From positions 1 to 14,712 of the forward strand of contig JAMCVR010000092.1 in NCBI GenBank assembly GCA_023475455.1: DNA of 14,712 bases, in the 5' to 3' direction. This document shows, piece by piece, positions 2,209 to 3,613 of the stretch. Numbering within the stretch: the stretch's first letter is position 1; every line of letters starts with the position of its first letter. The notes beneath the pieces were generated by a model. That model was not told the origin of the DNA and did not search any database. It was given only the letters and a program-made list of their open reading frames with translations. Origin of the DNA: Thermoplasmatota archaeon. GTDB taxonomy: Bacteria > Pseudomonadota > Gammaproteobacteria > Burkholderiales > Thiobacillaceae. The translations under genes were made by a program, and so were the position numbers.

Positions 2209-2532
2209 TCAGTACTTCAGGCTCAGGCCTTTCTGTTTGGAGAAATACAACGCCAGATCAAGCATGTCCGCATCGGACAGGTTCTGCACCTGTCCGGCCA
2301 TGATGGGGTTGTTGCGCTTGCCCGATTTGTAATCCTTGAGGGCGTGATACAGATAATCGCGCTGCTGGCCCGCCAGCACGGGGAAAGAAGGCACGGAACT
2401 GACGCCGTCCGCGCCATGGCAGGCGGCACAGGCGGCCGACTTGGCCTTGCCCGCTTCATAGCTGCCCTTGGCGTGAACCGGCAGGGAAAAACCCAGCGCA
2501 ACCGCAGCGAGGATGAACAATGTTTTTTTCAT
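2209..2532 (-). CDS. Class I c-type cytochrome, intact cytB copy
   Basis: Small monoheme cytochrome c of 107 residues, predicted to be exported to the periplasm as an electron carrier. An N-terminal Sec signal (about residues 1-21, MKKTLFILAAVALGFSLPVHA) precedes the heme site C35-A-A-C38-H39. The distal ligand is probably M78 (NNPIMAG), and the C-terminal helix (LDLALYFSKQKG) is complete. It belongs broadly to the c553/c4-like small cytochromes; the exact partner is unknown. The ATG at 2532 has GAGGA about 8 bases upstream and starts 14 bases after the cytA stop, so the two are co-transcribed. This is the only cytB copy with its native C-terminus, because the right-hand copy is cut by the duplication junction. 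Codons 1-88 fall inside the 670-bp repeat and the last 19 lie outside it. Confidence 0.93.
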   Translation of the reverse strand: MKKTLFILAAVALGFSLPVHAKGSYEAGKAKSAACAACHGADGVSSVPSFPVLAGQQRDYLYHALKDYKSGKRNNPIMAGQVQNLSDADMLDLALYFSKQKGLSLKY

Positions 2533-2546
2533 GATGCTGTCCTCGG

Positions 2547-2882
2547 TTAGTTGGCCGGGCCGCTGTAGGGCGACGCGTAATAGGCTGCGAGATCTTCCAT
2601 GTCCTGGTCGGACAGGCTGGCCGCGATTCCCTTCATGCTCGGATGGCTGCGCTCGCCGCTCTTGTAGGCCTTGAGTGCCGCCACGATATAATCGGCGTGC
2701 TGTCCGCCCAGCTTGGGAACGCTGTATACGCTGGGATAGGCGGTGCGCCAGCCGGCGATGCCGTGGCAGCCGGCGCACATCGAGGTTTTGACTTGTCCGG
2801 CCTTGGGGTCGCCCGCCGCCTGTACCGGCACGGCCAACGCCATCAGCACGGACGCGCACAGCGTCATCGTGGTGGTTTTCAT
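2547..2882 (-). CDS. Class I c-type cytochrome, cytA copy 1 (downstream)
   Basis: Monoheme cytochrome c of 111 residues. A Sec signal covers about residues 1-22 (ending AVPVQA), the heme site is C36-A-G-C39-H40, and the likely Met ligand is M83 (HPSMKG). A C-terminal helix (MEDLAAYYAS) completes the small cytochrome fold. It is a paralogue of cytB, sharing the YKSG(K/E)R...M and LSD motifs, so the pair probably arose by an older duplication. It acts in the periplasm, presumably as a soluble or loosely bound carrier. The ATG at 2882 has GAGCGAGGAAG directly upstream. Its sequence is identical to cytA copy 2 (3217-3552) because it lies entirely within the tandem repeat. The duplicated segment upstream has no promoter of its own, so expression probably depends on read-through from the promoter near 3614-3642. 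Confidence 0.92.
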   Translation of the reverse strand: MKTTTMTLCASVLMALAVPVQAAGDPKAGQVKTSMCAGCHGIAGWRTAYPSVYSVPKLGGQHADYIVAALKAYKSGERSHPSMKGIAASLSDQDMEDLAAYYASPYSGPAN

Positions 2883-2909
2883 CTTCCTCGCTCTCTTTGG
2901 TTGAGTTGT

Positions 2910-2928
2910 CGTCAGACCCCGTCTGACG
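2910..2928. repeat. Inverted repeat in the cytochrome leader, copy 1
   Basis: CGTCAGAC, a 3-base loop CCC, then GTCTGACG: a perfect 8-bp stem about 28 bases upstream of the cytA copy 1 start codon. It could be a small RNA hairpin in the leader or a dyad operator. An identical copy lies at 3580-3598 because the sequence is inside the tandem repeat. The stop codon of the truncated cytB falls within it. Confidence 0.65.
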
Positions 2929-3202
2929 CAGGGTTCGCCGCATCGGACAGGTTCTGCACCTGTCCGGCCATGATGGGGTTGTTGCGCTTGCCCGATTTGT
3001 AATCCTTGAGGGCGTGATACAGATAATCGCGCTGCTGGCCCGCCAGCACGGGGAAAGAAGGCACGGAACTGACGCCGTCCGCGCCATGGCAGGCGGCACA
3101 GGCGGCCGACTTGGCCTTGCCCGCTTCATAGCTGCCCTTGGCGTGAACCGGCAGGGAAAAACCCAGCGCAACCGCAGCGAGGATGAACAATGTTTTTTTC
3201 AT
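2912..3202 (-). pseudogene. Truncated cytB copy ending in a junction-encoded tail
   Basis: This second copy of cytB is identical to the intact gene through residue 88 (Sec signal, C35-A-A-C38-H39, M78). It then runs over the duplication junction at 2940/2941, where the last 19 native residues are replaced by the eight-residue tail ANPASDGV before a stop at 2912-2914. The product would be 96 residues and would lack the C-terminal helix that packs against the N-terminal helix in class I cytochromes, so it is probably unstable or non-functional. Its start signals (ATG at 3202, GAGGA upstream) are unchanged and it lies 14 bases after cytA copy 2, so it is probably still translated. I call it a pseudogene, but heme ligation residues remain and a short functional product cannot be excluded. 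Confidence 0.85.
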
Positions 3203-3216
3203 GATGCTGTCCTCGG

Positions 3217-3552
3217 TTAGTTGGCCGGGCCGCTGTAGGGCGACGCGTAATAGGCTGCGAGATCTTCCATGTCCTGGTCGGACAGGCTGGCCGCGATTCC
3301 CTTCATGCTCGGATGGCTGCGCTCGCCGCTCTTGTAGGCCTTGAGTGCCGCCACGATATAATCGGCGTGCTGTCCGCCCAGCTTGGGAACGCTGTATACG
3401 CTGGGATAGGCGGTGCGCCAGCCGGCGATGCCGTGGCAGCCGGCGCACATCGAGGTTTTGACTTGTCCGGCCTTGGGGTCGCCCGCCGCCTGTACCGGCA
3501 CGGCCAACGCCATCAGCACGGACGCGCACAGCGTCATCGTGGTGGTTTTCAT
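3217..3552 (-). CDS. Class I c-type cytochrome, cytA copy 2 (promoter-proximal)
   Basis: Identical in sequence to the copy at 2547-2882: 111 residues, Sec signal to about residue 22, heme site C36-A-G-C39-H40, probable Met ligand M83. It is the first gene of the array and sits closest to the TATAAT-containing promoter at 3614-3642. The frame is open up to 3615, but the preferred start is the ATG at 3552. That start has GAGCGAGGAAG directly before it and gives a proper signal peptide; a longer start would put a charged stretch in front of it. It is followed after 14 bases by the truncated cytB. The net effect of the duplication is therefore two full doses of cytA and one of cytB. Confidence 0.92.
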   Translation of the reverse strand: MKTTTMTLCASVLMALAVPVQAAGDPKAGQVKTSMCAGCHGIAGWRTAYPSVYSVPKLGGQHADYIVAALKAYKSGERSHPSMKGIAASLSDQDMEDLAAYYASPYSGPAN

Positions 3553-3579
3553 CTTCCTCGCTCTCTTTGGTTGAGTTGT

Positions 3580-3598
3580 CGTCAGACCCCGTCTGACG
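3580..3598. promoter_or_regulatory. Inverted repeat in the leader of the cytochrome operon, copy 2
   Basis: Same 8-bp dyad (CGTCAGAC / GTCTGACG, loop CCC). It is placed just downstream of the predicted transcription start (about 3607) of the cytochrome operon. The position suits either repressor binding over early transcribed DNA or a leader hairpin. No regulator was identified. Confidence 0.5.
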
Positions 3599-3613
3599 CA
3601 GGGTTCGCCGCCC

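Follow-up and report, generated by a model that had tools for sequence, protein, structure and literature searches.

The stretch of DNA analysed here (14,712 bases, hereafter the window) belongs to an uncultured host of the Thiobacillus group and carries four cytochrome reading frames on its minus strand, divergent from a gene of the sulP family. The latter (3717..5522, plus strand) encodes an anion transporter of the sulfate permease family with a STAS domain (PF00916 and PF01740), which scores just under the cut-off of NCBIfam TIGR00815 (380.2 versus 380.45). Its divergent neighbor is the promoter-proximal copy of cytA (3217..3552), encoding a complete monoheme class I c-type cytochrome of 111 amino acids (aa), as assigned by translation and by PF00034 on the identical protein. 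It is followed by a chimeric copy of cytB (2912..3202), by a second complete cytA (2547..2882), which lacks a -10 box but retains a leader and a GAGGAAG ribosome site of its own, and by the only complete cytB (2209..2532; 107 aa), the last gene of the cluster. Both 111-aa frames are intact and the two CytA proteins are identical in translation, bearing out the claim of the first-pass annotation that cytA is present twice.

The heme motifs CAGCH and CAACH are found in the translations and, together with PF00034 (33.0 bits for CytA, 35.5 for CytB, and 31.3 for the chimeric CytB; curated cut-off 21.3), place these proteins among the class I c-type cytochromes. CytA and CytB are ~45% identical and are therefore themselves an old pair. 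Their best-scoring solved relatives by sequence are c4 and c552 cytochromes (PDB 6q2u, 4o1w, and 1cno), with which they share the CXXCH motif and overall sequence. In contrast to c4, which is one chain with two such domains, the window has two separate monoheme genes, and its chimeric cytB departs from the c4/c552 type in lacking most of the last helix.

This chimeric gene consists of 88 native residues followed by ANPASDGV and a stop (...LSDA-ANPASDGV-stop), and residues 89-107, the last 19 of the intact protein, are missing, including most of the C-terminal helix. The PF00034 profile is matched to position 58 of 90 only, short of a complete fold. In the AlphaFold2 model of intact CytB (best of five, mean pLDDT 75.3; others 54.1-63.0), the last helix spans residues 87-99, and the block means for residues 81-100 in that best model are 90 and 88. 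Among the residues absent from the chimeric protein are D89, M90, D92, and L93, none of which varies in an alignment of 27 sequences (the CytB and CytA of the window and 25 of the 120 listed homologues). Given that the N- and C-terminal helices of class I cytochromes pack together, the chimeric CytB probably misfolds.

The exact repeat, its junction and the promoter

Exact extension within the window yields a direct repeat of 674 bases, with copy 1 at 2268..2941 and copy 2 at 2938..3611, a period of 670, and zero mismatches; each copy is a unit of 670 bases plus CCGC, and the CCGC at 2938-2941, common to both copies, is the junction homology. Copy 1 is preceded by ...AGCATGT before its CCGC, the joint between the copies reads ...GGGTTCG-CCGC-ATCGGACAGG, and copy 2 ends in CCGC-CCATTATAAAACC. 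The perfect adjacent 670-base units with CCGC at their edges that had been described earlier are thus confirmed, and their limits, 2271-2940 and 2941-3610, are one valid phase of the 674-base repeat.

A repeat of 670 bases is far longer than chance would produce. Apart from it, the window has a single exact direct repeat of at least 20 bases, one of 127 bases at its end, and exact inverted repeats of at least 20 bases are absent from all 14,712 bases. When 80 relative loci and the window (1,415,111 bases) were scanned for exact direct repeats of at least 60 bases, the longest in the relatives was 127 bases. Tandem Repeats Finder, whose longest period is 500, listed nothing in the window. In the single-copy form of the locus, 2.7% of breakpoint pairs drawn at random 200-700 bases apart match over at least 4 bases.

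The -10 box of the cytAB operon, TATAAT (3614..3619, minus strand), lies 2 bases outside the duplicated unit, the edge of which is at 3611. It is found in 27 of 29 aligned cytA-sulP spacers (the window plus 28 of the 33 loci in which cytA is next to sulP), the other two, L003 and L005, having TATACT; no clear -35 box was identified in these spacers. The unit does include the cytA leader and the GAGGAAG ribosome site. The description of the event as duplication of an operon accordingly needs correction, as one cytB is truncated by the loss of residues 89-107 and the TATAAT is left outside. Because this box is excluded, the simplest reading is a single promoter from which transcription continues into the second cytA: the order is likely cytA, truncated cytB, cytA, cytB, and expression of the second cytA probably requires read-through.

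The cytA leader contains a conserved 6-bp hairpin close behind the -10 box (3586-3604, minus strand), which is repeated at 2916-2934. In an alignment (A1) of 26 of the 28 spacer loci, L024 and L026 being left out, 95.3% of cells are paired in 25 distinct sequences, a value reached by 50 of 500 shuffles, compared with at most 55.3% for slid versions of the hairpin. Two-sided change occurs at three of the six pairs (11/500 shuffles), and the covariation score is 0.300 (45/500). No Rfam family matches at the gathering threshold anywhere in the window, the hairpin included. With this modest support from the alignment, the element is possibly a 5' stabilizing hairpin or an operator.

Single-copy state in relatives

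Among 80 fetched sulP loci, cytA stands beside sulP in 33, once in each, and cytB accompanies it in 32 of these 33; in L030, the contig ends inside cytB. A more distant pair, ~3.1 kb from sulP in L057, was excluded from the count. The other 46 loci have no cytA-cytB pair beside sulP; short contigs and relatives at a greater distance are among them. The genus of G001 (the genome of L016, titled Thiobacillus sp.) was covered by 56 genomes, of which 48 have a match of some kind to the unit and 44 a long one (E < 1e-100); 43 of the latter have one copy, including G038, where it is split over two contigs. The sole double match, in G013, comes from two contigs whose ends overlap over 975 identical bases. 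At the family level, cytA (E up to 1e-25) is found in 51 of 117 genomes, with one match in 50 and G013 again the exception. Judged by these sequence comparisons, a single cytA-cytB pair divergent from sulP is ancestral and the duplication is derived, because relatives carry cytA once.

The same array, which the first-pass annotation had advised looking for in related genomes, does not appear among the matches listed. A 204-base query across the junction has matches in 46 of the 56 genus genomes, every listed one on one side only, and none of the matches listed spans the junction. Many of the genus and family genomes are probably MAGs built from short reads, which may merge such repeats, and the absence of the junction from the listed matches is weak evidence. 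Recurrent duplication in relatives is ruled out within the genomes searched, the double match of G013 being overlapping contig ends. A plasmid origin of the cytochrome locus was likewise rejected, just one plasmid record having matched, over 13% of the query.

The surroundings of the pair vary in places. An HDOD-GGDEF gene lies directly beyond cytB (2135-2208) in the window and in L010, and ~4.4 kb separate the two genes in L011 (4779-9164), an insert with frames for an 892-aa CoA-binding/acetyltransferase-like protein and a 307-aa deacetylase-like protein (names given by eye).

Duplication, assembly and dosage

How the repeat should be read depends partly on the end of the window. A 127-base stretch (14284..14410) inside an SDR-family gene, named from plasmid annotations, recurs exactly at 14586..14712, with a period of 302, and the second copy ends on the last base of the window. 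In L019 and L073, which have NODE-type titles, exact 127-base copies flank 100-N gaps. Because of these copies at the window end and likewise around the gaps, the window very probably ends with a contig whose path in a k=127 de Bruijn graph came back to a vertex already visited and stopped there. At the joint, the window reads ATGCCGAGATCG, L119 ATGCCGGGAG, and L118, at the same place, ATGTCGGGAT; by this comparison, the joint, a second one of tandem type, probably shares four bases, GCCG, and the relatives L119 and L118 differ there. Two 4-base joints in one contig reflect a habit either of mutation or of the library.

Since the exact repeat of 674 bases is longer than k and than an ordinary short read, its two units and their perfect identity are the assembler's choice, and a k=127 graph of short reads does not allow copies to be counted. 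When a short-read metagenome contig contains a perfect repeat, the junction, which here is probably present in the reads, is data, and copy number and perfect identity are assembler output. The loop and cycle ambiguity of de Bruijn graphs in short-read metagenome assembly, as set out in one study (PMC9104695), has in common with the window an exact k-length repeat at a contig end. Unlike in that ambiguity, the 674-base repeat is fully written out in the contig body. The claim that perfect identity marks the event as very recent or kept uniform is weak, because copies collapsed in a k=127 de Bruijn assembly tend to come out identical; moreover, at assumed rates of 1e-9 to 1e-10, two copies that do not differ over 670 bases are compatible with ~2 to 22 million generations.

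The reading we prefer, with a probability of roughly 0.6, is a real, recent and ordinary short-homology tandem duplication that is present in at least part of the Thiobacillus population and has no selected role. A RecA-independent join, through replication template switch or end repair, would have connected the 3' part of cytB with the 5' leader of cytA at the 4-base CCGC match, converting promoter-cytA-cytB into promoter-cytA-cytB'-cytA-cytB. One upstream promoter would probably serve all four frames, CytA would be made from two genes and CytB from one, and cytB' would yield a cytochrome without its C-terminal helix, probably misfolding. The adjacent head-to-tail copies, absent from the relatives searched, and the short homology at their joint are those of a tandem duplication, and the reading gains support because the frames flanking the junction are both open and the ribosome site of the second cytA is preserved. 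Bacterial short-homology tandem duplications and amplifications share with the window adjacent direct copies, a few bases of homology at the junction, and a single-copy ancestor; an example is starving E. coli, where microhomology was present at all 40 sequenced amplification junctions (PMC3161906). Units in these known systems are kilobases and more, whereas the window unit is sub-kilobase, its host is an uncultured member of the Thiobacillus group, and the case is known from assembled sequence alone.

Three observations weaken the duplication reading: the second 4-base tandem-type junction in the same 14.7 kb, which could be a property of the library, the lack of a junction-spanning match among those listed for the 56 genus genomes, and the absence of the chimeric cytB tail from all 120 listed homologues (of 919), which cover at most 92% of that protein. 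P0001, the cluster that represents CytB of the window, has three member sequences on two contigs, the longest of 15,963 bases, and one of these contigs may be the window's own. An artefact of library or assembly, in which chimeric short reads joined unit end to start and the graph loop was walked once more over a genome with one cytA-cytB pair, is the main rival account, and the less probable one. The exact 127-base copy at the window end is what a k=127 path re-entering a visited vertex would leave, and the same signature surrounds the gaps in L019 and L073; two 4-base tandem-type junctions in one short contig, against no exact direct repeat longer than 127 bases in 80 relative loci, and the missing junction-spanning match point the same way. 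A loop end, however, stops contigs, and one at an end is therefore partly a matter of ascertainment, and a junction carried into a contig body usually needs read support comparable with its surroundings. Chimeras from DNA amplification are, in addition, mostly inverted (406 of 475, or 85%, in amplified single-cell DNA, with 11 of 475 being direct joins <10 kb; PMC1855051), and the mainly inverted joins of multiple displacement amplification are not seen in the window, which has no exact inverted repeat of at least 20 bases. Amplification chimera as the specific artefact is less likely, direct joins <10 kb being rare in that study (PMC1855051). Microhomology itself cannot tell a chimera from a real duplication, because most direct chimeric joins <10 kb also show complementary bases (90.9%; PMC1855051).

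Amplification selected for gene dosage, with more CytA favored under the sampled conditions and unit number varying by recombination, appears unlikely. It would agree with the complete cytA and ribosome site in both units, and homologous recombination can act on repeats of ~670 bases; a higher dosage and an array that expands or contracts, both put forward earlier, are possible. The -10 box, however, is single and not in the duplicated unit, one of the products is a shortened cytochrome, relatives have a single copy, and the second junction, in the unrelated SDR gene of the same contig, argues for a general cause. Because two such junctions occur within 14.7 kb in unrelated genes, it may also be supposed that sub-kilobase duplications at 4-base homologies are frequent and standing in this uncultured Thiobacillus population, allowing reversible dose change of periplasmic electron carriers, a proposal to which we give very little credence.

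If the tandem duplication is real, it would be a sub-kilobase event with a clear ancestor, caught before decay, and a natural double dose of cytA from a single promoter. No description of this cytochrome duplication was found among the titles and abstract openings listed from the literature on Thiobacillus cytochromes and SulP or on bacterial microhomology tandem duplication. Events of this kind are well known, and this is a new example, without demonstrated function.

Host metabolism and other features of the window

The host had been taken as a likely sulfur oxidizer, and other genes of the window agree. Flavocytochrome c sulfide dehydrogenase is encoded at 11156-12741, by a gene for its monoheme cytochrome (11156-11458; 100 aa) and one for its flavoprotein, which has a TAT signal (11479-12741); these genes therefore support a sulfide oxidizer. 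Thiobacillus also appears in the titles of many of the sulP loci that match best.

Toward the end of the window, a TetR-SDR block (13359-14585) is 92-94% identical to sequences of G011 and G018, and the other 54 genus genomes give no match as long. TetR-SDR pairs on plasmids of Shinella and Azospirillum are similar to it (68-69%), and on these sequence comparisons the block was probably transferred. A dispersed repeat of ~40 bases, at about 13296-13344, matches the genus genomes at many sites over short lengths. Two imperfect inverted repeats, at 7681-7823 (arms of 35 nt, 86%) and 8743-8837 (arms of 36 nt, 75%), the former built of CACAGAGGCACAGAGG-like units, give the impression of small non-coding repeat elements.
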